Shown in pieces: positions 8,565 to 26,261 of a stretch of 27,829 nucleotides of DNA. The notes under the pieces were generated by a model that saw only the letters and a program-made list of their open reading frames with translations, was not told the DNA's origin and did no database searches. The position numbers and the translations under genes are program-made. This stretch comes from Deltaproteobacteria bacterium RIFOXYA12_FULL_61_11 (lineage in GTDB: Bacteria > Bdellovibrionota_F > JAHFAK01 > YA12-FULL-61-11), in contig MGSU01000332.1 in NCBI GenBank assembly GCA_001799195.1, positions 10,431 through 38,259 on the forward strand. Reading direction: 5' to 3'. Position 1 is the stretch's first letter; each line of letters begins with the position of its first letter.

Positions 8565-9509
8565 ATGAGCAGGAAAGTTCTCATTGCCGACAAGGTCCCT
8601 GAGTGGTTCCTGGGCCGTTTGCGCGAAGCCGGATTGGAAGTTTCTTTCCAACCGAAACTCGGCGAGGCCGAGCTCCCAACTGCTGTAGATGGCATAGAGG
8701 TTCTCGTGGTCCGTTCGACCAAGGTTAGCGCAGCCGCCATAGAGGCCGCCTCGAAATTGGCCCTAATCGTCCGGGCAGGTTCTGGCTACAACACCATAGC
8801 GGTTGACGCTGCAACGGCCCACAGGGTTGCAGTGTCCAATTGCCCGGGTAAGAACGCAGTGGCAGTGGCCGAGTTGGCCATGGGGTTACTCCTTACCCTC
8901 GACCGCCGTATCCCTGACAATGTTTCAGATTTCCGCAGTGGTACCTGGAACAAAGCAGAGTATTCCAAAGCCGAGGGACTGTATGGTAAGACGCTCGGCA
9001 TCCTTGGGATGGGGAACATCGGCAAAGAAGTTGCACGTAGGGCTAGGGCCTTTGGAATGAAGGTCTGTGCCTATGACGTTGTGACCGTCAACGAACCGGG
9101 GGTCGAAATGCTGAAAAGCGTCGAGGCCGTGGTTGTGGCCGCCGACGCACTCACCGTGCACCTCCCTGCAGGACCCACGACCAAGGGGTTGTTCAACACC
9201 GCCATGTTCGATCGGATGAAGCCGGGGATGCTCTTCATCAACACCTCTAGACATGATGTGGTCGATGAAGCAGCCCTGCTCGCCGCGGTCGAGAAGAAGG
9301 GTTTGCGGGCAGCCGTGGATGTATTTAAAGGCGAGCCGGAGCAGAAGAATGGTGCAGTTACCTCGCCGCTCGCGAATTGTCGTGGTATTTATGTAACCCA
9401 CCACATTGGTGCTTCCACCGAACAGGCTCAGAATGCAGTGGCCGAGGAGGCCCTGCGCATCATCCTGACCTGGTATCGCGAAGGTACGGTCCCTAACCGG
9501 GTTAACTGA
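8565..9509 (+). CDS. D-2-hydroxyacid dehydrogenase, SerA-like (3-phosphoglycerate dehydrogenase family)
   Basis: NAD-dependent D-isomer-specific 2-hydroxyacid dehydrogenase of 314 residues. The likely substrate is 3-phosphoglycerate (first step of serine synthesis), but glyoxylate/hydroxypyruvate-type substrates cannot be excluded. The start at 8565 is preferred over in-frame GTG 8529 and ATG 8544 because AAAGGGGG (8553-8560) sits just before it and the protein then begins MSRKVLIADK, as family members do. Visible motifs are the substrate-loop RAGSGYN (70-76), the NAD-binding GMGNIG (149-153 region), catalytic Arg229 (NTSRHDVVDE), Glu257 in KGEPEQ, and catalytic His280 in THHIGAST. The NTSRH sequence differs from the usual N-[TS]-[AS]-R-G. 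There is no ACT or regulatory C-terminal domain, so this is the short form. Its 3' end overlaps the convergent acetyltransferase by 8 bases. Confidence 0.85.
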   Translation: MSRKVLIADKVPEWFLGRLREAGLEVSFQPKLGEAELPTAVDGIEVLVVRSTKVSAAAIEAASKLALIVRAGSGYNTIAVDAATAHRVAVSNCPGKNAVAVAELAMGLLLTLDRRIPDNVSDFRSGTWNKAEYSKAEGLYGKTLGILGMGNIGKEVARRARAFGMKVCAYDVVTVNEPGVEMLKSVEAVVVAADALTVHLPAGPTTKGLFNTAMFDRMKPGMLFINTSRHDVVDEAALLAAVEKKGLRAAVDVFKGEPEQKNGAVTSPLANCRGIYVTHHIGASTEQAQNAVAEEALRIILTWYREGTVPNRVN

Positions 9510-9972
9510 AAGTCGTCTCCACTAAATCCATGGCCAGGAAACGGAGCATTACGATGGCATCCTCGCCGTCGGGGTAGTAGCTGCGGCGCCGTTGTACGGA
9601 ACGGAAACCGTATTTCGTGTACAAGGCTTGTGCAGGACGGTTCGAGGCCCGGACCTCGAGGATCAGGGAAATTGCCTTCCGGGTTTTTGCAACCTCGAGG
9701 AGGTCGAGCAGCATGGTGCTGCCAAAACCCTTTCGGAGGTCCTGCACCGCCACTGCAATATCGAGCAGGTGGAGTTCGTCGTAGAGGAAGCGGGCGAAAT
9801 AGAAGCCCAGTAATCTTCCGCTTTCATCAAACAGGCCTTTGCAGAAGGCTTCGGTTTGGGTCAATTCGTCCTCGAAACTCTCGCGACTCCACGGGGTGGA
9901 GGTTGCCGAAGCCTCTATCCGGCAGACCTGATCCAGGTCAGCAGAGTTAAGGTTTCGTAGAGAGGTGGACAT
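9502..9972 (-). CDS. rimI: GNAT acetyltransferase, RimI-like (ribosomal protein/protein N-alanine acetyltransferase)
   Basis: GNAT-fold N-acetyltransferase of 156 residues, the usual RimI length (about 150). The acetyl-CoA loop is seen as VQDLRKGFGSTMLLDLLE, matching the Q/R-x-x-G-x-G/A pattern. The C-terminal signature EVRASNRPAQALYTKYGF followed by RRRSYYPDGEDAIVM is characteristic of RimI, which acetylates the N-terminal alanine of ribosomal protein S18. It is the last gene of the minus-strand operon, and its start overlaps the end of the SurA-like gene by 26 bases, indicating translational coupling. No tsaB or tsaD, which often neighbour rimI, is present here. The gene symbol rests on motif similarity; another protein target is possible. 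Confidence 0.8.
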   Translation of the reverse strand: MSTSLRNLNSADLDQVCRIEASATSTPWSRESFEDELTQTEAFCKGLFDESGRLLGFYFARFLYDELHLLDIAVAVQDLRKGFGSTMLLDLLEVAKTRKAISLILEVRASNRPAQALYTKYGFRSVQRRRSYYPDGEDAIVMLRFLAMDLVETTFS

Positions 9973-10654
9973 CGAGTGACAGTAAAGTTACCGGGGTGCG
10001 TTCGCGCAAGCGAGCCAACCACGTCTGCAATCTCGTTTTGCGCTTTTCGGCCACGAGAGCGGCCTGCACAGAGGGACGTACTTCCTCGAAACTCCGATTT
10101 CCATACATGCCGCGGTTTTTTTGGTAGTGATGACGCAGCTCTGCTTCTCTGGAGGTTAACTCGGGTCCTAGGGTGAGGTCGAGGTATTCTTGTACCATCA
10201 GTTTGGCGCGTAAGCGTGCGAGCAGCTCGGAGGGGGTCAGACCGAGGGCGGTGAGAAGAGGCTGTACGTGCGCGAGGGTGAGGCGCTCGCGTTCGAAGGT
10301 TGCAAGAGATGCACCATGCTTGTGGTTGATTGCTTCCTCAGAGACCAGTTGTAGGATCTGTACGTCGGCCAGAACCAGGCGTTCGACTACCAGATTGGAC
10401 AACACCGTTTGGAATTGTTGCTCGGAGAGCGTGCGTACCTCGTCGAGCTCGAAGGGGGCTGGAGAAATCCTCAAACGCTCGAGGAGAGCGTCCAGGTGGA
10501 CATCGAACACGGTCACATATTCGTCGCCGACCTTGGCCACGAGCGCGTTGACCAGCTTTGGTGGAGTCGTCTCGGAGGGAGGACTCTCGAGGCTCAGGGG
10601 TACAGGACTCCCGGAGAGCGCGAATAGTCCTAGGAAGATCGCGAGGAGGGGCAT
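9947..10654 (-). CDS. SurA-like periplasmic chaperone without a PPIase domain
   Basis: Protein of 235 residues with a short hydrophobic N-terminus (MPLLAIFLGLFALSGSPVPL) that looks like a signal peptide. The rest resembles the SurA/PrsA N-terminal chaperone domain: an early VNALVAKVGDEYVTVFDVHLDALL block, helices ending in VVERLVLADVQILQL, then a LMVQEYLDLTLGPELTSREAELRHHY segment, as in family members where Tyr and the ELR/ELRHHYQKNR stretch lead into the last helix. SurA assists folding of outer-membrane proteins. No parvulin PPIase domain is seen, so the protein is only the chaperone module. It starts 5 bases after the preceding membrane-protein gene and overlaps rimI, so it is part of the operon. 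Inferred role: folding or assembly of periplasmic partners, perhaps including the FN3 protein encoded upstream. Confidence 0.65.
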   Translation of the reverse strand: MPLLAIFLGLFALSGSPVPLSLESPPSETTPPKLVNALVAKVGDEYVTVFDVHLDALLERLRISPAPFELDEVRTLSEQQFQTVLSNLVVERLVLADVQILQLVSEEAINHKHGASLATFERERLTLAHVQPLLTALGLTPSELLARLRAKLMVQEYLDLTLGPELTSREAELRHHYQKNRGMYGNRSFEEVRPSVQAALVAEKRKTRLQTWLARLRERTPVTLLSLDVHLSTKP

Positions 10655-10659
10655 TGCTC

Positions 10660-11313
10660 TCAGAACCGTGCAAAGGTGCCCAAGATCCAGTCGTTGAGCA
10701 AGAAATTGAAACGTCCGATGAGTAGGGAAATACGTGCCATGACCGTGTAACCAAAGGCAGCGCCGAAGGAAACCATCAGGAACCAGGTACCCAACACTGA
10801 GACCTTTGCGAACACCTGCGAGGAGAGTTCACCTTCTTTTACCTCTTTGGAGAAGAAAAAGTAGACTAATACGGCGAGGACCCCGATCAGAATAATAAGG
10901 TCGGTGTGGAAGAATTTGGCCGAGAATTGGTTCAAGGGCAGGATCGTCGATTGGATTTGGGGTAGGACTTCGCCATGGAGTTTGAGGATCATGTTGTAGC
11001 CCGCGTAGTAGCCGACATAGGCGGCCAGCGAGTATTTGCCCAACCAAGCCAAGGATTTTTTATAACGGGCATAGAGTAATATCCCCATCGCCGTGGGGAT
11101 GAGCAAGTGGAGGTTCCCACTGAAGTCCTGCCGCAATGGTTCGAGGAGATTGGGACGCAACGTATTGCCCAACTCATTACCGATGTAGTAGCCCAGCGAA
11201 ATGCCGGCGAAGAGTGCTTCGGTAAAGCGGAAGTAGGGATTGTCCTTGTAGAGGAAGCTGAATAATCCCAGGGTCAGCAGTGCTGCGACCCACACGCCGA
11301 CGAGATCATCCAT
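10660..11313 (-). CDS. Conserved six-helix membrane protein of unknown function (DUF6754-cluster)
   Basis: Integral membrane protein of 217 residues. By eye there are about six hydrophobic segments, near residues 4-22, 29-46, 68-83, 92-110, 138-155 and 168-196. Notable sequences are FRFTEALFAGISLGYYIG, a Pro-containing helix LLIPTAMGILLYARYKK, and LGKYSLAAYVGYYAGY; glycine and tyrosine are frequent within the helices. I do not recognise an enzymatic motif or transporter signature. It lies 3 bases from the upstream gene and 5 bases from the downstream gene, so it is surely co-expressed. From memory, proteins like this sit beside DUF6754 proteins in other genomes. A structural or channel-like role in one complex with the three upstream products is inference. 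Confidence 0.7.
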   Translation of the reverse strand: MDDLVGVWVAALLTLGLFSFLYKDNPYFRFTEALFAGISLGYYIGNELGNTLRPNLLEPLRQDFSGNLHLLIPTAMGILLYARYKKSLAWLGKYSLAAYVGYYAGYNMILKLHGEVLPQIQSTILPLNQFSAKFFHTDLIILIGVLAVLVYFFFSKEVKEGELSSQVFAKVSVLGTWFLMVSFGAAFGYTVMARISLLIGRFNFLLNDWILGTFARF

Positions 11314-11316
11314 GAC

Positions 11317-12216
11317 TCACTCCTCCGAATGATGCGGACGCTTCCTGGATCTGAAGTAGGCCAGGTTGCCGAGCACGATGAATGCGATGATGATCAGATG
11401 CACCACGGACTGTACGTCCATACCTTTAATCGCGGTGTAACCACCACCCGCGCCCGGGCCGTTGAGTCGCTCGTAGATGCGGCGGAGTGCGGGGTAGCCG
11501 TCCATGACGAGTTTCTCATATTCGGAGGCGGCTTTGAGACCGCCCATCAGGCCGAGCATGTTTCCTGAACGGAGGTAGGCATAGTACTTGGGCGCAGAGA
11601 CCGCGGTGCAACCCACGGCGACGGGTAGGCCGTACTGAGCATTGACCAAGTTGGCCCACCACTCGCCGATGATGCCGGTCGCGATAGAAACAGCAAGTTT
11701 CAAATCTTTGTAACTCTTTATTTTTTGCATCATTGGTAGGTCTGCAATGGGTCGTTTGGCGAGGTCCATAGGGAAGATGGTATGCAGGTCCTGACCCATG
11801 GCTTTGAGCACTGCGATACCACCCGATTTATAACCGAGGTTGACGTAGTCTTTTCCATAGGTGAGTTCGGGGAACTCTTTGGCAACCCTGTCCAAACTGA
11901 GTTGGGACATGGTCACGCCGCCCAAGGGGTAAAGAGCAATGACCACCAGCTTGATCCCGCGAGCCAGGATGTGCCGCATCACCGCTTCGGCCATGGGGTC
12001 GTTCTCGGGACCGGTCGAGGGGCCATAGTCGAAGGAGACGATGACGGCATCTTCGGGACCGAGTTTTTCGATATAGTCATAGATGTTGCGGACCGGAGGG
12101 GTGATCGTGACGGGCAGGTTCAACGGATAGATCAGCGGAAGCAGGGCGCCCACACCGACTATCAGATAGATCCACCGGCGGTCGAGGTCCTCGAGCCGAT
12201 CGAGCAGGGCTTTCAT
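11317..12216 (-). CDS. Membrane-anchored alpha/beta protein of unknown function (DUF6754-cluster)
   Basis: Protein of 299 residues with one hydrophobic helix at each end (about 17-35 and 273-290) around a soluble domain of some 235 residues. The N-terminus (MKALLDRLEDLDRRW) and the C-terminal YFRSRKRPHHSEE are basic, so by the positive-inside rule both ends are cytoplasmic and the central domain is periplasmic. That domain has alternating strands and helices (DAVIVSFDYGPSTGPEND, IKLVVIALYPLGG) and a conserved-looking block VGCTAVSAPKYYAYLRSG followed by LGLMGGLKAASEYEKLV. I cannot assign it to a named enzyme family. It is separated by 3 bases from each neighbour. The domain has a loose resemblance to the C-terminal domain of the FN3/DUF6754-like protein (see findings). 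Confidence 0.7.
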   Translation of the reverse strand: MKALLDRLEDLDRRWIYLIVGVGALLPLIYPLNLPVTITPPVRNIYDYIEKLGPEDAVIVSFDYGPSTGPENDPMAEAVMRHILARGIKLVVIALYPLGGVTMSQLSLDRVAKEFPELTYGKDYVNLGYKSGGIAVLKAMGQDLHTIFPMDLAKRPIADLPMMQKIKSYKDLKLAVSIATGIIGEWWANLVNAQYGLPVAVGCTAVSAPKYYAYLRSGNMLGLMGGLKAASEYEKLVMDGYPALRRIYERLNGPGAGGGYTAIKGMDVQSVVHLIIIAFIVLGNLAYFRSRKRPHHSEE

Positions 12217-12219
12217 GGC

Positions 12220-12912
12220 TCAGTCCTCCTGTTCCTTGCCCATATACGACCGCTCGATCCCAAGCAATACTTTCAAAGCCATCGAGGCCGCGCCGAGAGC
12301 CGCACCGATCATGATAGCCCGTTGCGCCGCGGCATTGGGACAGTCCATCAACCACTCGGTGATGCCGGAGAAGGTATTTTCCGCTCCGGGAAGCCAAGAG
12401 AAGATCATGTCCCCGAAGGGTACCCTGCCCAGCATGACGAAGACTCCGGCGATGAGCAGCAGCGTAGCCGAGAGGTTGCGGGCGCGGAAGGCGCGGTAGG
12501 CTGCAGAGGCGACGTAGAAGGAGAGCAGGGCGAACATGGTGGATTGCAAGGGGATGAACATGTGTGTTGCCATCCAGTGGAAGGGAGTGGCCGAGCCGTC
12601 GGGTCGTAAATTGGTCCCTCCGAAGGTATCCCAGATAGCTCCAGTAAAACCGAAGAAGCCCATCGAGAACAAGCCGGCCAGGAGGACCACTGCATAGAAC
12701 CACCCCTGTTCGCGCCGCTTGATCTTGGTCCACGAGTTCTGAACCACATTGACGATGCCGAGAAGGATGGCAAAAACGTAGATGATTGGCATCCAGGTGT
12801 CATTGAGAGCTTTGCTCGGCGCTGTGACCCATTCCACGTTGACGAAATGGGCGACGATGGGGATGGTGCCGAAGAAGAAGCACAGGACGAGGGGAAACTT
12901 GTATTTATTCAT
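12220..12912 (-). CDS. Six-helix membrane protein of unknown function (DUF6754-cluster)
   Basis: Integral membrane protein of 230 residues with about six hydrophobic segments, near 5-24, 42-59, 70-90, 112-138, 146-161 and 197-214. The N-terminus MNKYKFPLVLCFFFGTIPIV suggests an uncleaved first helix rather than a signal peptide. The loop between helices 3 and 4 (WDTFGGTNLRPDGSATPFHW) and HMFIPLQSTMFALLSFYVAS are distinctive, but I do not link them to a named family. It is the second gene of the operon, 19 bases after the FN3/DUF6754-like gene and 3 bases before the next. Function unknown; a subunit of a shared membrane complex is the simplest inference from gene order. Confidence 0.7.
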   Translation of the reverse strand: MNKYKFPLVLCFFFGTIPIVAHFVNVEWVTAPSKALNDTWMPIIYVFAILLGIVNVVQNSWTKIKRREQGWFYAVVLLAGLFSMGFFGFTGAIWDTFGGTNLRPDGSATPFHWMATHMFIPLQSTMFALLSFYVASAAYRAFRARNLSATLLLIAGVFVMLGRVPFGDMIFSWLPGAENTFSGITEWLMDCPNAAAQRAIMIGAALGAASMALKVLLGIERSYMGKEQED

Positions 12913-12931
12913 CGCGCCCTCCGGACGGTTC

Positions 12932-14665
12932 TCATTTTGCCTGCAGGAACGCGGTCAACCAGTGGACGCCCGCGGTTTCAAGAATCACTCCGAGGAGCAG
13001 CACGCCAATGAGGATCGCCTTGACCCAATCCTGCCCTTTTATCGAACCGACCATCAAGGGGTCCTTGGAGATGTACGCACTGGCCGCGTAGAGTTCTTCA
13101 CCGATCAGGGTGTAGTCGCAAGCGCAGACAAAGAAAGGCAATTGATGGACCTCGGCCGTGCCCGCGATCTGGATTGCACCGGTGAGTTGCCCGGTTTCGG
13201 CAAGGAGCAGGGATTCGGCATAGAAGGAGCCGATGAGGAAATTAGCCGCCGGTCTTTCGCGGACCATCTTACCGCAGACTGAGGCGGTGTAAGCGAATTG
13301 GTCGTAGGTAATGTAGGTAACCATGTCCTCACGGTATTTATCGGATTTTCCGGCCGTGAGGAACGCCTCGCGCACGGTTTCACGAGCCGCGGCAAAAGTG
13401 ATGGGATCTTTATTCGGGACCTCGAAGAGGGTGTCATAGTCGGCGGCATAACGAGCGACATAACCCAGGATGGACAGTGAAGCGATGGTTTGGACTTCGT
13501 CCATGCTCATGATCCCTGGGATGTAGAGGATCTTGCGGCCCATCTCTGTAGCACGCCCTATGGCGTCCTCGATTGCGTTCAGTCCTGCGATACGTCGGAT
13601 GAACAGGTCTTTGCCACGTCTGGAAGTGTTGATCAACCAGAGGACGATACTGCAGAAAAGGACAAAAAGAAACAATGCATTGAAGCGATCAGGGTTGAAT
13701 ACCGTATAGACCGGGACGGCTTCGGCCGAGGTCAGCATCGCGACCGGTTTGCCAGCTTCGAAAAGAGTAAGGCGATAGCAGTAGGGTTGGTTCTCGGTCA
13801 GTCCGGTCTCAGTGAAACGTTCATCCGCTGGGGCCACCTCGGCGACCTTGGAGAGGGACCCATCTGATGCAACACGCTCGATATGCAAGAGCGGCGAGGT
13901 CAGACTGTCGAGTTGGCGGAAGCGCCAGCGGAGTTCTAAACCATCCCCCTGATCATTACGGATATCGTTGACCTGCAAAGTTTCGAAGACAAAATTGCGC
14001 CGGACGGTCACGGCCGAGGAGAGCCAGCGAGCCGAGCCCGGTTCAAAGCCCTCAGCTCGAAGAATCGTGAGGCGATAGTGGTAGTTGCTGCCTTCAATCA
14101 GCCCATTATCGAGAAAGGAACCAATTGCAGGATCGATCTTGGCAACCTCGAAGAAGTCTTCGGCTTCGCTCTCTTTGCGCTCGATCAGGAGGAGCAAGTG
14201 AAACCCGAGATCCTTGCGCTGGCGCCACTGCCAGTTGAGGGCGATGCTATCACCCGAAGCGTCCAATGCGTCAGTGACTTCTAAGTTGGCTAAATCGATA
14301 TCAAAACGAGGTGTTACAGGAGATGATACACCAACTTCTACGATATGGTCATCATCGGTCAAGGTAAAGCGGTAGAGGTATTCTTGGTCGGCTGCCAACC
14401 CCTGATCATAAAGGGTTTGACTGCTCGGAGAGGGCTGTTCAACAAGGTCGAATTGACCAGGGTTGGAAATGGTGGAGCGTTCTATTCTGAGCCGCATCCC
14501 TTCGGAGGGAAGGCCACCCCAACGCCAATTCAAGGTTACCCCGGTGCCATTGTCGAGAGGGGTGTCGATAGCTGCGAATTCGGAGATGAGGGAGGCCTCA
14601 GCTTCCTGAACAACTAGACATACGATGAGGGATAGGATTAGTGCCGGGAGCCAATTGTTGATCAT
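12932..14665 (-). CDS. FN3-repeat membrane protein with DUF6754-like domain
   Basis: First gene of the operon, 577 residues from the ATG at 14665; a GTG one codon upstream (14668) is the alternative, and a GAGG a few bases before favours ATG. A signal peptide (MINNWLPALILSLIVCLV, then AEA) is followed by three fibronectin-type-III-like repeats, roughly residues 28-120, 123-225 and 228-318, each with the W-R/W core and a Y-x-Y-R-[FL]-T strand (YLYRFTL, YHYRLTI, YCYRLTL). A helix at about 330-346 ends in basic NTSRRGKDLFIRR. Then comes an alpha/beta domain with KILYIPGIMSMDEVQTIASL, RPAANFLIGSFYAESLLLAE and FFVCACDYTLIGEELYAASA, and a last helix at about 553-572. The latter half matches my memory of the family Pfam calls DUF6754. 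Function unknown; topology predicts FN3 repeats in the periplasm and the DUF6754 part in the cytoplasm. Confidence 0.8.
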   Translation of the reverse strand: MINNWLPALILSLIVCLVVQEAEASLISEFAAIDTPLDNGTGVTLNWRWGGLPSEGMRLRIERSTISNPGQFDLVEQPSPSSQTLYDQGLAADQEYLYRFTLTDDDHIVEVGVSSPVTPRFDIDLANLEVTDALDASGDSIALNWQWRQRKDLGFHLLLLIERKESEAEDFFEVAKIDPAIGSFLDNGLIEGSNYHYRLTILRAEGFEPGSARWLSSAVTVRRNFVFETLQVNDIRNDQGDGLELRWRFRQLDSLTSPLLHIERVASDGSLSKVAEVAPADERFTETGLTENQPYCYRLTLFEAGKPVAMLTSAEAVPVYTVFNPDRFNALFLFVLFCSIVLWLINTSRRGKDLFIRRIAGLNAIEDAIGRATEMGRKILYIPGIMSMDEVQTIASLSILGYVARYAADYDTLFEVPNKDPITFAAARETVREAFLTAGKSDKYREDMVTYITYDQFAYTASVCGKMVRERPAANFLIGSFYAESLLLAETGQLTGAIQIAGTAEVHQLPFFVCACDYTLIGEELYAASAYISKDPLMVGSIKGQDWVKAILIGVLLLGVILETAGVHWLTAFLQAK

Positions 14666-14844
14666 CACGGCCTCGTGCGTAGCCTAGTCAGCCTCGAGAA
14701 ATATCCGGTCCGTTAGGACTTGCGACCGGGTACCGACAATGCATCGGCAACCTAGCAAACCCCAACAGAGGTGGCAACACTGAATTATCAAAGCTGGATA
14801 TCATCAAGCCAAGCGGTTGGCCCCCCCATGTGCCACCCCTCCGG

Positions 14845-14876
14845 AACCCCCCGGGGTCAGAACCCCCCGGGGTCAG
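14845..14876. repeat. Two tandem copies of a 16-bp GC-rich unit
   Basis: The unit AACCCCCCGGGGTCAG occurs exactly twice in a row, at 14845-14860 and 14861-14876. Each contains the palindrome CCCCGGGG, and the second is followed by AGG, giving GGGGTCAGAGG. Short repeats built on GGGGTCAGAG are, from memory, common beside Y1 transposases of the REP-associated type, and one begins 131 bases downstream. Read as part of a REP-like element together with the adjoining hairpin. Confidence 0.75.
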
Positions 14877-14893
14877 AGGTTCGATTTTCGGAG

Positions 14894-14928
14894 AGTGACC
14901 GATTTTCAGTGACCGAAAATCGGTCACT
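14894..14928. repeat. REP-like perfect 14-bp inverted repeat
   Basis: AGTGACCGATTTTC (14894-14907) and GAAAATCGGTCACT (14915-14928) are exact reverse complements around a 7-base loop, AGTGACC, that itself repeats the start of the stem. The tetranucleotide GGAG (14890-14893) directly precedes the stem, the place where REP elements carry their conserved 5' tetranucleotide. A second pairing, CGATTTTCGG (14882-14891) with CCGAAAATCG (14913-14922), competes with the first. There is no T-run after the stem, so an intrinsic terminator is less likely than a transposase recognition hairpin. Confidence 0.75.
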
Positions 14929-17579: not shown

Positions 17580-18836
17580 ACGTTAGCTCGTCCCCTGCTT
17601 CGCATCGCTGCGATTCTCGCCGTCTTCTCCAGCCTGATCGTACCTCACACCCTCCAGGCTAAGACCTATGGTTTCTTCGCTCTCCCTCGCGACGCTGTAC
17701 CCCTCTTCGAGCACCTTTCCAACACCCTACCCTTACGCGGACCGGCTGAGGATGCGGTCTTCCTGCATGATAAGCTATTGAAGCAATTAGTCTTGCCCTC
17801 CTCCGTCCCCATGATCGGGGTCTTGCTCGAATGGAAGAACGGCGCGTTGAGAGGTACTGCCATCCTCGAGGTCGCCCCCTCGAAAACCCCTGACGGTTAT
17901 CGCGAGGTGCTTGTCTCGGCCTGGCACCTGCTTGTACCTGAGGATAGTGCGATCTCGTCCGACGAACTTGTCACCTTGCTCAAGACGCTCGGTCCTGCGA
18001 ACCGTTGGCCCAGACTGGCTTTGCTGCATCGGGGAGACGAAACCACCGACTGGAGACTCTTACCCGGTGCCTGGACCTATCAAAGCAGAGAACTGACCGC
18101 CGAGCTGCTACTTCCCTGGAACGGAGCCCCTCTCGCTCCGCTCTACCCGAGGCCGGAGCTCACCCCACCCCTGCCCCTTGCCCTCGAAATCGCCTTCGGA
18201 CTCGATGCCTCAGCTCTTGCCTCCATGCAGCAGAAAGAGGCCGGAGGTCGAGGTTTGGCCGAATACTTCAACCTCGACCCTCGCGCCGCCTTGGCCCAGG
18301 TGCTCGGTCCTACCTATATATTCGGTTTGGTCGAGAGCGAGGAGCGCGGCCTTGCCCACCCCTCGGGCTTCCTCATCGCCAAGGTGCGAAGTGAGGCTCT
18401 CGCCAGAGGTGCCCTGCGCCTAGTCGAACGGAGTTTGGCCGAACTCTGGAAGGTCGAGTTTAGGGAGGACCCCGGCTCAGCCGGAGCCATACGCAGTGTG
18501 GAACTACCTCTGTTCCCGCATGCCAGCCCCTGCTGGATGGTCGAGAAGGGGTTTACGGCGCTCGGCTACGATCTGCCGCTCTGCAGACGATTGCATAAGC
18601 TGAATCTCGAATTCGTCTTGGATAAGGGTAGCCACCTTCCTTCGACTCCGAGCATCGAGGCGACCTTCAACGGCAGTGCGATCGATCGCAGCAACGAAAT
18701 GCTCCGAGCAATGACTGGGGCAGGCGTAGGCCGAACTCAGCCGTTCCCCTATGAACTGGTCGTGCTGAGTCTTTCCCAGCGTGAAGGTGGGATGCTGCTC
18801 CACTGCGTGGCCCGAGAGGTGGAGCCGCAGAGATGA
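17580..18836 (+). CDS. Secreted protein of unknown function, apparent ACG start
   Basis: The first canonical start in this frame is TTG 17778, which would give 352 residues. The frame is open well upstream, and 17580-17660 encodes a textbook signal peptide (TLARPLLRIAAILAVFSSLI, then VPHTLQA before KTYGFF). The only well-placed codon is ACG at 17580, eight bases after GAGG (17568-17571). I therefore annotate from 17580 (418 residues), either a rare ACG start or an ATG altered by mutation or sequencing error. The mature protein has no motif I recognise. It is rich in Leu, Pro and Arg and reads like a compact alpha/beta domain, with ALAQVLGPTYIFGLVESEER and FGLDASALASMQQKEAGGRG among its distinctive parts. 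Its stop overlaps the next start (ATGA), so it is translationally coupled to the TPR/phosphatase gene. Function unknown. Confidence 0.7.
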   Translation, partial: TLARPLLRIAAILAVFSSLIVPHTLQAKTYGFFALPRDAVPLFEHLSNTLPLRGPAEDAVFLHDKLLKQLVLPSSVPMIGVLLEWKNGALRGTAILEVAPSKTPDGYREVLVSAWHLLVPEDSAISSDELVTLLKTLGPANRWPRLALLHRGDETTDWRLLPGAWTYQSRELTAELLLPWNGAPLAPLYPRPELTPPLPLALEIAFGLDASALASMQQKEAGGRGLAEYFNLDPRAALAQVLGPTYIFGLVESEERGLAHPSGFLIAKVRSEALARGALRLVERSLAELWKVEFREDPGSAGAIRSVELPLFPHASPCWMVEKGFTALGYDLPLCRRLHKLNLEFVLDKGSHLPSTPSIEATFNGSAIDRSNEMLRAMTGAGVGRTQPFPYELVVLSLSQREGGMLLHCVAREVEPQR

Positions 18837-21259
18837 AGCTGGGAAGGAAGAACATACGGTTTGCGGCTTTGATTGCAGCGGCAGTTGTAGGGGTGGGCAT
18901 CACCGCGGCAGCCATCCCCACCGTCCGCCTAGCAGTCCTGCTCGCTCTCGCCAAAGACACAACTGCAGAACTCAAAGCGTACGAACGCGAATTGGACGTC
19001 GTGCTCGGCTATGCCCGCTTGCGGAATACCTTCTTCGAGGCCCTGATCCTCGCGGGGAGGTCAACCGACGTCGTTCAATATTACAGCAAGTTGGATGAAC
19101 AACAAGCCGGTGAGGCCGAAACCCTCCGCGTGGTCCTCGAGGCCCTGGTGCGCAGTGGTCGGCACGATCGGGCAGAACAGCTCTTCACCCGGAACAAGGC
19201 CAAGCTCCAAGGGCAGACCTACGAATTGGCCTTGACCACGCTGGCTCGGGCTTACCTGCAACGGAAGCGATGCCTCGACGGACTGCGCATGCTGGAAGCG
19301 CACGAACCGGCTGCCCCATCCCCCCGGCTGGCCCTGCACCACGCTCGCCTGGAAATCGAATGCCGCCGTTTTGACAAGGCGGAACAACGCCTTGCTGCGA
19401 TCAGTGCCAGGGCCGACCTCGATCCGGCTCTGGCCGAGAAGGTACTCCTGGTGCGAAGCATCGCTCTGGCCCGGCAACTTCGCCTCGAGCAGGCTATCGC
19501 CGTGCTGGAAACCTCTCTCGCGGCAAGGAAGGAACGGCCCCCGGAGGTGGTGCGCCTCCTCGCCTTGCACCTTGTCGCCGGTGACCACCTGCTCCAGGCG
19601 AAACCCCTGATAGTGGAAGCCTTGCGGGCTTATTCCAACGATGCCCTGCTCCACATGTATAGAGCCAGGATCGCTTACGCCGAAGGGGACAAAGCGACCG
19701 GACGCGAAGCCTTGACTACGTATGCGCGGCTGCTCGGGATGGATGCCGAGGCTCAGCAGAAGAGTCTCTTGCGCATCGAGGGTCAAGGAGCCTCAGAACG
19801 CCAACTCGACCTTCCTATAGAGGTCCGGGACTGCACCAGCGATGCCCTTCTACTCCGCGCATCCCTCGATCGCGAGGGCCGACACGAGGAAGTCACTGCG
19901 TATCAGCCGCTTCCTCTCGAACGCCTCGACCGTTGCACCTTTACCACGACCCTTCGCGTCCTCACCGGCTCCCCCTTCGGGCTGACCATGCTCGTCGGAA
20001 CTCAGGATGGTGGGACGCGCGCCGGAGTCCGGCTCTCCCCCGAAGGTCTGTCAGCCGAACATCCAAAAGTGTTCCTTGATGTCGCCGACCCTTCGTTCCG
20101 CTGGCCGCGCCGGAACTTGGCCGAGGCCGATTTCAAACGATCGGTCGAGAATCTCGCTCGCCGCGCCGGGGGCGAGATCCCGACCTGGCCCGAGGTATCC
20201 TTGGATACCCCGGTCAGTGGCTTGCTCGGTGCAAAGAAGGAAACCCCACAACGAAAACGGGTCGTGGTGGTCTGGCTCGACTGCGGGAGTTGGTGGATCT
20301 TGATGCCCCTGATCCAGGCCGGTGCTGGTCGGCCGTATGCGCGGTTGATCGAGGCGGGCACGCACGGAACCATGGTCACCCCGGTACTGCCCACCGCCCA
20401 AGCCACCAAGGTCCTCACCGAACTCGGCTGGCGACAGGGCTCTTCGCTCGGCTCCATGGTCCGGGATACCGTGATCCAGCTCAAGGGGTTGGTTGCCCTG
20501 TCCTCCCTTCTCGCCGGCGTCAGCGAACGAGCGGTCGATTACCTGCTCGGAGAGAAGGTGGAGACGATCTGGCAACGGCTCGGCCGCCACGAACGCAGCT
20601 ATCTCAATTACATCTACTCCGACCTCGGGTTGCATGCGACCGAGGATGCCGGCAAGGAAAGACCGGTTTTGACCCTCCCCCCACCGGACGAACCCTCGGA
20701 ACGAGCCGCGTTCATGCGCTTCATCGTCGGCGCCCGCTCCGGGGACGATCGGGAACGCGCGGTCGATGAACTGCTCCTGGAGACCTTCCTGGCCACCAAC
20801 GAGAAATACCTCAACCTCCTCAGGACGCTGACCCAGGGAGGACCTGACTTCCTGATGGTGCGCTTCCCGGAGATGGATTTCCTGATGCACAAGTTCATCG
20901 ATCACCTCGCCTGGCATCCCGAAACCCGGGGCACCCCCTACGATGGAGTGCTCGATTTCTTCTATCAGTACTACGGATACATGGTCGCTTCCCTGCTCCC
21001 CTTGCTCGGCCCGGAGGATACGCTCTTCGTGATCAGCGACCACGGTGGACTGGACATGTTCCATCACCACGAAGAGGCCCTGTTCTTTGCCGTTGGTCCC
21101 GGCATCGAGGCAGGACGGGTGTTGCCGCGTTTCTCGATGACCCTCTTCCCGGCGACGGCGCTGCGCTGTCTCGGACTCGAGGACCCCGACCTGCATCCTG
21201 CCATCCAGGGTCTGTGCTCCACCGCCGCTACCCCACACACCGGGAGACCTCGCCCCTAG
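18833..21259 (+). CDS. Membrane-anchored TPR protein with alkaline-phosphatase-superfamily domain
   Basis: Protein of 808 residues, starting within the ATGA overlap. A basic N-terminus and a helix (about 10-37) anchor it, with the rest predicted periplasmic. Residues of about 45-310 form TPR-like helical pairs (RTLARAYLQRKRCLDGLRM-type repeats). A beta-rich linker follows, then an alkaline-phosphatase-superfamily domain from about 475 to 790, nearest to the type I phosphodiesterase/nucleotide pyrophosphatase group. Seen there: VVVVWLDCGSW (first metal Asp, about 482), TPVLPTAQATK (candidate Thr nucleophile, about 518-522), VRFPEMDFLMHKF (metal Asp and His, about 681 and 685) and FVISDHGG (Asp-His, about 736), followed by a His-rich MFHHHEE. 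The substrate is unknown; phosphodiester or lipid headgroup transfer is possible. Context: co-transcribed with a secreted protease and an unknown secreted protein. Confidence 0.8.
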   Translation: MKLGRKNIRFAALIAAAVVGVGITAAAIPTVRLAVLLALAKDTTAELKAYERELDVVLGYARLRNTFFEALILAGRSTDVVQYYSKLDEQQAGEAETLRVVLEALVRSGRHDRAEQLFTRNKAKLQGQTYELALTTLARAYLQRKRCLDGLRMLEAHEPAAPSPRLALHHARLEIECRRFDKAEQRLAAISARADLDPALAEKVLLVRSIALARQLRLEQAIAVLETSLAARKERPPEVVRLLALHLVAGDHLLQAKPLIVEALRAYSNDALLHMYRARIAYAEGDKATGREALTTYARLLGMDAEAQQKSLLRIEGQGASERQLDLPIEVRDCTSDALLLRASLDREGRHEEVTAYQPLPLERLDRCTFTTTLRVLTGSPFGLTMLVGTQDGGTRAGVRLSPEGLSAEHPKVFLDVADPSFRWPRRNLAEADFKRSVENLARRAGGEIPTWPEVSLDTPVSGLLGAKKETPQRKRVVVVWLDCGSWWILMPLIQAGAGRPYARLIEAGTHGTMVTPVLPTAQATKVLTELGWRQGSSLGSMVRDTVIQLKGLVALSSLLAGVSERAVDYLLGEKVETIWQRLGRHERSYLNYIYSDLGLHATEDAGKERPVLTLPPPDEPSERAAFMRFIVGARSGDDRERAVDELLLETFLATNEKYLNLLRTLTQGGPDFLMVRFPEMDFLMHKFIDHLAWHPETRGTPYDGVLDFFYQYYGYMVASLLPLLGPEDTLFVISDHGGLDMFHHHEEALFFAVGPGIEAGRVLPRFSMTLFPATALRCLGLEDPDLHPAIQGLCSTAATPHTGRPRP

Positions 21260-24297: not shown

Positions 24298-24864
24298 GTG
24301 GGCCGTCAGGGTTCCTTCACCCTCACCGCGGGCAAGGTTGCGTTGGTGCCCCTGCAACGCGGAAAAACACTGCTCCTCCGCGATCGGGAAGGAGGGGCCG
24401 TCGTCCATCTCGTGATGGTCGTCAAGCATGACGTGAGGGAATACTTCGATCGAGGGTGGACCCTGCACGAGCTCCGTTCTCTCCGGCCGACCGTCGGCGA
24501 TGTCCTCTATTCCAACCGCGGCAAACCGCTGGCAATCATCGCCGAGGACAACGTCCGGAGGCATGACCTGCTCCTCCCGTCCCTCCCCCTCTATCCCGAC
24601 GGCCCGGATCCCCAGACTCTCCTGCGGGGACTCTTCCGCGGCAAGGCCGTCCCCCGGGAAGCCCTGCTCCAGAGCCTCAACCTCTTCCTCAATGTCGAAA
24701 TCGGTTTTGACGGTGCCTTGACCATCTTGCCCGCGGCAGCGGGCCCAGGCGGATATATCCTCTTCGAGGCCCGAGAAGAGCTGCTCCTGGCTCTCTGCGT
24801 AGTCGGCCAGGATCTCTCCGTGCGTACCCTGGCCGTCGAGGTTCTCTATACGTTCGCCAGTTGA
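24298..24864 (+). CDS. DUF1989 / urea carboxylase-associated family protein
   Basis: Cytoplasmic-looking protein of 188 residues with a GTG start four bases after the PhnD-like stop. It fits the DUF1989 (urea carboxylase-associated) family by three blocks: VGDVLYSNRGKPLAIIAEDN, where the family has G-x-x-L-x-S-N-x-x-x-P, then RRHDLLL, and LNLFLNVEIGFDG followed by PGGYILFEAREELLLAL and GQD. In many family members an HD-x-L-x-x-x-C sequence occurs; here the segment is HDLLLPSLPLYPDG without Cys, so a metal or catalytic role may be altered. The family is known beside urea carboxylase/allophanate hydrolase genes, and none is here. Pairing with an orphan binding protein is unusual. Assignment is by recalled motifs. 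Confidence 0.65.
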   Translation: MGRQGSFTLTAGKVALVPLQRGKTLLLRDREGGAVVHLVMVVKHDVREYFDRGWTLHELRSLRPTVGDVLYSNRGKPLAIIAEDNVRRHDLLLPSLPLYPDGPDPQTLLRGLFRGKAVPREALLQSLNLFLNVEIGFDGALTILPAAAGPGGYILFEAREELLLALCVVGQDLSVRTLAVEVLYTFAS

Positions 24865-24870
24865 CAAGCG

Positions 24871-24899
24871 TTGCCTTTCCTGGACTTTTCCCTTACGAT
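24871..24899 (+). promoter_or_regulatory. Possible promoter of the PilZ gene
   Basis: TTGCCT (24871-24876) and TACGAT (24894-24899) stand 17 bases apart and would start transcription near 24906, about 45 bases before the ATG at 24951. A perfect TTGACA also occurs at 24861-24866 but has no reasonable -10 partner. Prediction only, on partial matches. Confidence 0.3.
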
Positions 24900-24950
24900 T
24901 GTGCGTCAGTGCGATTCGCGACAAGGGATTGGGGCGCACCGAGGAGAGGG

Positions 24951-26261
24951 ATGTCCGAGCGACTGAAGCGTTGTCTCAAGGCAGTGGCTCAACTCACGCC
25001 CCAAGAGAAGCTCACCCTGCGCGATTATCTTGTCAAAATCACTGCCGTGCAGGCTGCTCCCGAAGAAGACCCAGAGGCTGACTTCAGGGACAAACGCCGC
25101 AGTCCGCGCTTCCGGGTCGAACTTGCCGGGAACGGGTTGTTGCTGCGCGAGACCGCGACCCTGAAGGACAATAAACGCTTCCAGATAAAGATCTTGGACA
25201 TCTCGAAAGAGGGAGTGCGCTTCCGCGCGCGCAAGAAGATCCACACCCACGATGTCTGTTTGCTCAATTTCCGGATGAAGAACTCGGGGCTCAAGAAGAT
25301 CCATATCGAGGTGGTCTGGTCCCGCGAGATCGGCGGACAAGCGGCGGCAGATCCTCTCGGTTTCGAGTTCGAGTACGGAGGTTGTGTCGTCACCGAGAGC
25401 AAAGTCCAACACCTCATGGTCAACCTCGAGCGGCAGCTCAAGGTCAACGAAATCCTCGCGAGGAGGGGCTTCAAGGTCCTGTGTGGTTTCCCTCCGCTGG
25501 TAGGTCAGGGCATTCTTGCCGGACTAACCAGGGACGGCTACCAGGTCGATGAGGTCGGCGCCTTCAAAGAGCTGCTCTCGAGATTGCTCGGGGCTGCCTT
25601 CACCTTGATGATCATCGACGAATCCCTCATCAGGGGAGGTTTGGCCGACTTCATCACCCAGGTACGGAAATACCGCCAAGAGCTCCTCATCCTCCTGCTC
25701 CAGCGCGAAACCGGCCGACCGATCTACGATCCGGCGCTGCGCGGGATCCAGGTCGCGGTGCGCTGGGACACCCCGGTCGGGGACATACTCAAGCTGGTCG
25801 AACGCCTCCTCCGACAGAGCCTGTGTCACAATTGGCAGCTCGTCACCCGCACCAAGCTCAAGTTGGTCTGCTACACCGAGGACCCCGAACTCGGTTCGCG
25901 GCTCGAGGAATGTTTCAAGAAGATCAAGTACTATTTCTTCCTCGAGATGATCGTGGGCCGCTACCCCGGTCCCGAGGAGGTCGACCACATCAACAGCTTC
26001 GACTTCCTCTTCCTCGACGTACGCCGCCTCGACTTCGACCACCTCGACGTGCTGCAAGAGGTGCTGCCCAGGCTCACCCTACCCGCGCTCGCCCTCGAGG
26101 ACGACACCCTGGGCAACGAGCACCTGCAACTCGAACGCTTCGATGCAGTCCTGTCCCTCCCCCTGCAGGTCGAGAAGCTCGAACAGACCCTCATGGAGAC
26201 CTTCAAGAACTACTACGAGCAACAGAAGCTCGACCTCGAAACCGCGCCCGAATACGTCTGA
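24951..26261 (+). CDS. PilZ (c-di-GMP effector) protein with two receiver-like domains
   Basis: Protein of 436 residues. The ATG at 24951 is preferred over upstream starts because GAGGAGAGG (24941-24949) precedes it and MSERLKRCLKAVAQLTPQEK is a plausible helical N-terminus. A PilZ domain covers about 48-145, with Arg49-x-x-x-Arg53 (RRSPR) and Asp83-x-Ser85-x-x-Gly88 (DISKEG), the residues that bind cyclic di-GMP. Two alpha/beta segments follow, about 168-290 and 300-425, that look like degenerate response-regulator receiver domains (VLCGFPPLVGQGILAGLTRD, LMIIDESLIRGGL; then LVCYTEDPELGSRLEECFKK, FLFLDVRRLDFDHLD). An Asp sits where the phosphoacceptor would be in each, but I cannot see the acidic pair and Lys of active receivers. 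The protein is likely a c-di-GMP responsive adaptor for motility, adhesion or secretion. It converges with ampG. Confidence 0.75.
   Translation: MSERLKRCLKAVAQLTPQEKLTLRDYLVKITAVQAAPEEDPEADFRDKRRSPRFRVELAGNGLLLRETATLKDNKRFQIKILDISKEGVRFRARKKIHTHDVCLLNFRMKNSGLKKIHIEVVWSREIGGQAAADPLGFEFEYGGCVVTESKVQHLMVNLERQLKVNEILARRGFKVLCGFPPLVGQGILAGLTRDGYQVDEVGAFKELLSRLLGAAFTLMIIDESLIRGGLADFITQVRKYRQELLILLLQRETGRPIYDPALRGIQVAVRWDTPVGDILKLVERLLRQSLCHNWQLVTRTKLKLVCYTEDPELGSRLEECFKKIKYYFFLEMIVGRYPGPEEVDHINSFDFLFLDVRRLDFDHLDVLQEVLPRLTLPALALEDDTLGNEHLQLERFDAVLSLPLQVEKLEQTLMETFKNYYEQQKLDLETAPEYV

Follow-up and report, generated by a model that had tools for sequence, protein, structure and literature searches.

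Six open reading frames (ORFs) run in the order A to F on the minus strand between positions 9502 and 14668 of a 27,829-nucleotide stretch from Deltaproteobacteria bacterium RIFOXYA12_FULL_61_11 (contig MGSU01000332.1; the whole stretch is referred to here as the window), and the first four of these encode membrane proteins that constitute a well-supported conserved and co-inherited module. Gene A carries DUF6754 (PF20539), a Pfam domain of unknown function, and the recurrence of A, B, C and D goes far beyond chance: at least ten phyla, mostly uncultivated, have these four genes in identical order. Three further proteins, n1, n2 and n3, are likely partners of this module, among them n2, a protein of the ASKHA type. 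We tentatively propose that the module and its partners carry out an ATP-driven process in the cell envelope, a reading to which we give somewhat less than even confidence.

Recurrence and inheritance of the A-D module

The distribution of DUF6754 was surveyed in a sample of 386 genomes together with 14 well-known control genomes: the domain was present in 102 of the sampled genomes (about a quarter) and in none of the controls. Gene order was examined in 80 loci from sampled genomes with DUF6754 and in 80 named loci, the genomes of the two sets partly overlapping, and the order count rests on 161 loci in total, partly from the same genomes. These loci contain 211 copies of A, with 13 cut by contig ends and 198 evaluable; A is followed by B, C and D in the same order and on the same strand in 183 of the evaluable copies. 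In the first 80 loci, iterative profiles found A only slightly more often than B, C and D. The named loci stem from Poribacteria, WOR-3/Stahlbacteria, Eisenbacteria, Cloacimonadota, Latescibacterota, Zixibacteria, Fermentibacteria, Edwardsbacteria, TA06, UBP2 and Armatimonadetes, among others, and the system is absent from the one other genome of the same phylum as the window that was sampled. Using C alone as query identified 103 genomes, 100 of them in common with the 102 that contain A (Fisher p 2e-86).

Tandem arrays such as ABCD-ABCD-ABCD are common, and about half of the genomes with A (49 of 102) hold between two and six copies of it. Tandem copies within a locus are nearly as divergent as copies from different loci (59% versus 57% identity for A, 42% versus 39% for C), which indicates that they are mostly old paralogues. 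When tandem loci were compared with one another, all four genes shared the best-matching set in 55% of cases versus 8.6% at random: A-D are thus inherited as a set. The DUF6754 domain itself retains a mean identity of 57% across phyla, pointing to strong constraint. Three loci, L070 (ABCDCCC), L045 and L156, hold additional solitary copies of C, and of A, beside a full set, which suggests that C can diversify separately. Three genomes with no DUF6754 match (G093, G231 and G361, all in family f94) encode a diverged homologue of C (E about 1e-28 to 1e-30), perhaps a distant variant of the module. We found no homologues in viral contigs, phages or plasmids and on this ground rejected a mobile or viral origin of the module; a role in defence was rejected since the PADLOC protein models gave nothing at E up to 0.01 against A-D, n1 or n2.

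A first-pass annotation, made from the sequence of the window, had read the six genes as one operon, with the four membrane proteins forming an envelope complex and the last two genes encoding a SurA-like chaperone, proposed to help in assembling the outer part of that complex, and a RimI-like acetyltransferase. The ORF listing reproduces its coordinates exactly, with gaps of 19, 3, 3 and 5 bases between successive genes from A to E and an overlap of 26 bases between E and F. The survey upholds the unit of four, together with the statement that DUF6754 is found mostly in uncultivated phyla: the genes are regularly found together, and B, C and D match nothing in Pfam, NCBIfam or PADLOC at the curated cut-offs, known transporters and enzymes included. 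The operon is conserved in its A-D part only. Gene F (9502-9972, 156 residues) is indeed a RimI-type N-acetyltransferase (TIGR01575: 109 bits versus a cut-off of 86.4, E 2e-31), whilst gene E (9947-10654, 235 residues) encodes an exported protein with only weak similarity to SurA (SurA_N_3: 23.9 bits, below the 27.2-bit cut-off) and no clear peptidyl-prolyl isomerase (PPIase) domain. Among the first 80 DUF6754 loci, searched with iterative profiles built from the window proteins, homologues of E and F occur in the window alone: because they stand beside A-D only here, E and F are not part of the conserved module but local neighbours, and the survey does not support them as members.

Probable partner proteins and predicted architecture

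Clustering of the genes around the module identified two dominant neighbour families: n1 is present at 46 loci and n2 at 37, and n3 (24 loci) and n6 (15 loci) lie upstream. The gene order is n6-n3-n2-n1-A-B-C-D, with n3-n2-n1-A-B-C-D seen in many loci, and in some Zixibacteria loci n1 and n2 are divergent and upstream of the module. We detected n1 in 97 of the 102 genomes with A and elsewhere as two marginal matches only (Fisher p 3e-82); n2-like matches likewise occur in 97 of the 102, at full strength in 92. In case of n3, the count is 78 of 80 genomes with DUF6754 versus 2 of 80 without, where one match is marginal and the other is in a genome (G087, 85% complete) that has a full-strength n2. 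Since n1 does not adjoin the sampled A locus in many genomes, its co-occurrence with A is not a by-product of linkage. The genome of the window is such a case: n6-n3-n2-n1 lie together on one contig (C78), apart from A-D on another (C332), which is why the partners n1-n2-n3 were not visible in the window.

The n2 protein, of about 600 residues, is a MutL/GlmL-type ASKHA protein that matches the MutL superfamily (PF13941) over its full length, with 426.5 bits versus a cut-off of 27, and should thus share the ATP-binding ASKHA-type fold. The n2 of the window's own genome stays below the GlmL cut-offs, scoring 229 of the 475 bits needed for NF040745 and 173.9 of 204 for TIGR01319. The n1 protein contains a barrel-sandwich stretch (Biotin_lipoyl, 23.8 bits, and a sub-threshold RnfC_N match on one member) as well as a weak KOW motif; attachment of lipoyl or biotin to n1 was rejected, given that n1, in the alignment as read by eye, has another residue where the attachment lysine usually stands. 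The n3 protein comprises some 100 residues and matches no known family, and n6 is weakly bPH-like. Several genomes encode a paralogous form that joins n2 and n1 in one ORF of about 900-1000 residues, a fusion that argues for n2 and n1 working together. Five such ORFs, of about 880-1040 residues and in genomes that also have the stand-alone pair, were located at L197:6300-9410 (-), L198:5132-8089 (-), L199:492-3527 (-), L200:20-3106 (+) and L201:3523-6162 (+), those at L197 and L200 beginning with a helix-turn-helix-like segment. Stand-alone n1 is almost always present as a single copy, despite the two to six copies of A in half of the genomes.

Topology was predicted from hydropathy and charge. 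Gene A (12932-14668, 578 residues) encodes a signal peptide, three FN3-like repeats, a transmembrane (TM) segment, the DUF6754 domain and a second TM segment, with the FN3 region predicted outside and DUF6754 inside. The repeats (13703-14584; residues about 29-125, 126-228 and 229-322) are predicted to be periplasmic, as the first-pass annotation had it. They are visible as internal repeats in the sequence, and the FN3 reading is supported by a match of the A family profile to titin FN3 domains (E 1e-6), Pfam fn3 itself giving no match in A. The DUF6754 domain (12947-13705, Pfam residues 322-574) is unambiguous, at 377.7 bits versus a cut-off of 27 (E 3e-113), in line with the FN3/DUF6754-like character first assigned to A. 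Gene B (12220-12912, 230 residues) has six TM segments and belongs to no known family, and gene D (10660-11313, 217 residues) is polytopic with five clear TM segments, probably six: the description of both as six-helix proteins therefore holds for B and is probable for D. Gene C (11317-12216, 299 residues) is, as had been proposed, an anchored alpha/beta protein, with two TM segments around a predicted periplasmic Rossmann-like domain and both termini predicted inside. B, C and D have no Pfam match at E up to 1, and all of their NCBIfam matches are far below cut-off. Promoter and terminator sites, as scanned for, are no more numerous here than in shuffled sequence.

AlphaFold2 was run on single chains with family alignments. 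The models of the DUF6754 domain of A (predicted local distance difference test, pLDDT, 92.5; predicted template modelling score, pTM, 0.85) and of C (pLDDT 95.3, pTM 0.91) are alike, each showing a TM segment, an alternating alpha/beta domain of about six strands and a further TM segment in a similar element order. Despite this shared order, hhalign found no relation between the A and C sequences and we rejected the two as sequence paralogues, as we did B and D, for which no sequence relation was found. Foldseek searches of A's domain and C against the PDB gave nothing at E below 1e-3, and a sequence search for solved relatives of the DUF6754 domain, C, n1 and n2 returned none. Using VIA, the best match to A's domain was Sir2 (1yc2_D; Z 11.8, root-mean-square deviation 3.5, 144 aligned), with phosphoglycerate kinase also among the moderate structural matches; C matched 1kjn best (Z 9.9), and its list lies mostly at Z 8-10, close to values at which two folds may have no more in common than their general arrangement. 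Matches common to A's domain and C are 1kjn, CODH epsilon and MthK RCK, and the top-ranking matches show about 6-12% sequence identity. The predicted folds are hence compatible with a nucleotide-binding type, function not being indicated by them. Over 173 A-D sets, about 50 positions of the DUF6754 domain are conserved at 95% or more; R358, E375, Q457, E485, Q500, C517, D518 and E524/E525 of A are invariant or nearly so, as are E32 and R194 of D and H273 and N284 of C, which lie in or at the edge of membrane segments.

A proposed mechanism and its alternatives

We tentatively favour a reading in which A-D encode an inner-membrane complex that is worked by the cytoplasmic proteins n1, n2 and n3 through an ATP-driven envelope process. 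Its parts differ in strength: judged from the genes, A-D very probably form one complex, coupling of that complex to n1/n2 is probable, and the choice of transport or assembly driven by ATP, over sensing or catalysis, is provisional and falls short of even chances. The conserved cytoplasmic domain of A would serve as a docking platform for n1/n2, and binding or hydrolysis of ATP by n2 would bring about a conformational change in A, which A, C and the polytopic core B/D may pass across the membrane. There, the variable FN3 arms of A and the Rossmann-like domain of C would act on an envelope component, by substrate binding, export or assembly; for the substrate and the direction of this process we go by inference. 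Several A-D sets with different periplasmic arms could in this manner share a single cytoplasmic engine.

Several points weigh against such a complex. The association of A-D is itself deduced, the predicted structures being those of single chains, and the concordance of best-matching sets may be explained in part by linked inheritance of A-D; the Fisher p values, in turn, look stronger than they are because the genomes share ancestry. That n2 hydrolyses ATP is an assumption based on its family, and GlmL-family proteins are named accessory proteins of B12 mutases, not motors. The fold matches of A and C are generic Rossmann matches that point to no transporter, and TonB genes lie near the module in a minority of loci only. 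Finally, the most conserved part of A is cytoplasmic and enzyme-like (C517, D518, E485, E524/E525), which also fits catalysis.

This enzyme-like conservation is the starting point for one alternative, in which A-D would be a membrane-bound enzyme: A's domain, with a nucleotide or cofactor bound to it, would modify a lipid or a precursor of the envelope, with n2/n1 as an ATP-dependent chaperone or reactivase. The moderate structural similarity of A's domain to NAD-binding Sir2 and to phosphoglycerate kinase would agree with this, as would the NCBIfam names of the GlmL relatives as accessory proteins of B12 enzymes. However, A's domain has no recognisable catalytic motif to go with its lack of Foldseek matches below the threshold given above, B and D match no enzyme family in Pfam or NCBIfam, and topology prediction puts the similar domain of C across the membrane, in a compartment poor in nucleotides; a membrane enzyme is rather unlikely. 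A receptor, in which an extracytoplasmic ligand docks to C and the FN3 arms and the signal runs via B/D to A's cytoplasmic domain to be relayed by n1/n2, appears unlikely too, although it would fit a periplasmic arm that varies above a near-invariant cytoplasmic domain. Multiple chemoreceptors share one kinase, and the several copies of A per single n1 form a similar pattern; DUF4388-type proteins also adjoin the module in some loci. Against this, no kinase or cyclase was recognised in those recurrent neighbour families whose clusters were scanned, and two polytopic subunits with invariant membrane residues exceed what a relay needs.

Two further explanations are much less probable. Membership of n2 in Pfam MutL could place it in a B12-dependent mutase pathway, making its co-occurrence with A-D incidental; yet glutamate mutase component E is above cut-off in just 1 of 80 DUF6754 genomes, for which reason we rejected the link, and in the window's own genome its match is marginal (E 8e-4) and below cut-off. 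As n2 is in addition far below the GlmL cut-offs and n1 and n2 have the distribution and neighbourhood of A, this pathway is very improbable. Scarcely any probability attaches to the view that the six genes are a commonplace operon, its housekeeping and membrane proteins having nothing to do with one another and the chaperone and RimI being functional members: the short gaps in the window would fit, but E and F lack homologues in the other loci searched whilst A-D recur across phyla.

On the boldest reading, A-D and their partners would exemplify a new class of trans-envelope machines in which one cytoplasmic ASKHA-type ATPase and a barrel-sandwich/KOW adaptor energise a number of inner-membrane complexes that can stand in for one another, every complex having a Rossmann-like domain on either membrane side and an FN3 periplasmic arm of its own, the class being ancestral to or spread across many phyla; we regard this generalisation as doubtful. 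The seven genes make up a system with near-perfect co-occurrence in many candidate phyla and no function assigned in the libraries searched, and A-D probably belong to a cell-envelope system that is widespread among bacteria and as yet undescribed. Its identification would put a name to something basic that the envelope does in FCB-type and related phyla and show a new use of the ASKHA fold, and an unnamed DUF already becomes a defined set of parts: A-D plus n1, n2 and n3.

Neighbouring genes and comparison with known systems

Some Fermentibacteria-type and WOR-3-type loci have genes for a TonB receptor, ExbB and related proteins close to the module: a TonB-dependent receptor, ExbB (MotA_ExbB) and ExbD/TonB-like genes, ExbD and TonB being named by eye, follow the module at L055, L061, L118, L145, L146, L157 and L165, a hint of outer-membrane traffic. 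Glycine cleavage P-protein genes (n5) are found upstream of the module at L056, L061, L134, L146 and L183, and in some of these loci (L056, L183) the n1-n2-A-D cluster has a gene for a lipoate-protein ligase (n9) on its downstream side. In the window, an IS200-like Y1 transposase (PF01797; 15008-15745, plus strand) is located just upstream of the operon. Palindromic repeats adjoin it at 14844-14928, with 17-nucleotide arms 1 nucleotide apart at 14894-14928 and a perfect 16-nucleotide tandem at 14844-14875; the arrangement is like that of a REP-associated transposase with its repeats. Further along the plus strand, the window encodes a 352-residue protein without Pfam matches (17778-18836), followed by an 808-residue protein with TPR and sub-threshold phosphodiesterase/nucleotide-pyrophosphatase similarity (18833-21259), and a 466-residue protein whose only Pfam match is PilZ, at residues 78-170 (24861-26261).

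Comparison with described systems places gene A clearly within Pfam DUF6754, although that entry is a domain of unknown function whereas we here find it in a B-C-D module with the partners n1, n2 and n3. DUF6754 is unmentioned in the literature searched, and the searched passages of two studies on unknown genes of uncultivated taxa and phyla (PMC10849945, PMC9727166) contain no description of the module. The alpha/beta domains of A and C are, as models, moderately similar to Sir2/CODH-epsilon/RCK-type Rossmann domains, but differ in sitting between TM helices and in having no significant Foldseek match. The resemblance to Rnf/Nqr is one of working parts only: two proteins of some 200-230 residues that span the membrane about six times, a pair of anchored subunits, and n1 as a soluble protein with a barrel-sandwich domain and a weak RnfC_N match; B and D, however, match no Rnf-Nqr family, A-D have no conserved iron-sulphur cysteine motifs over the 173 sets, and n1 reaches 12.5 bits versus the 245.95 of RnfC (TIGR01945). 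The closest relation is that of n2 to the GlmL/MutL accessory proteins of B12-dependent mutases (PF13941, NF040745, TIGR01319), with which it shares the full-length PF13941 match and from which it is set apart by its low GlmL scores and by the near-complete lack of glutamate mutase in DUF6754 genomes. On the basis of these comparisons, A-D and their partners appear to be new as a system, one in which n2 represents a known superfamily and for which the mechanism is put forward as a proposal.

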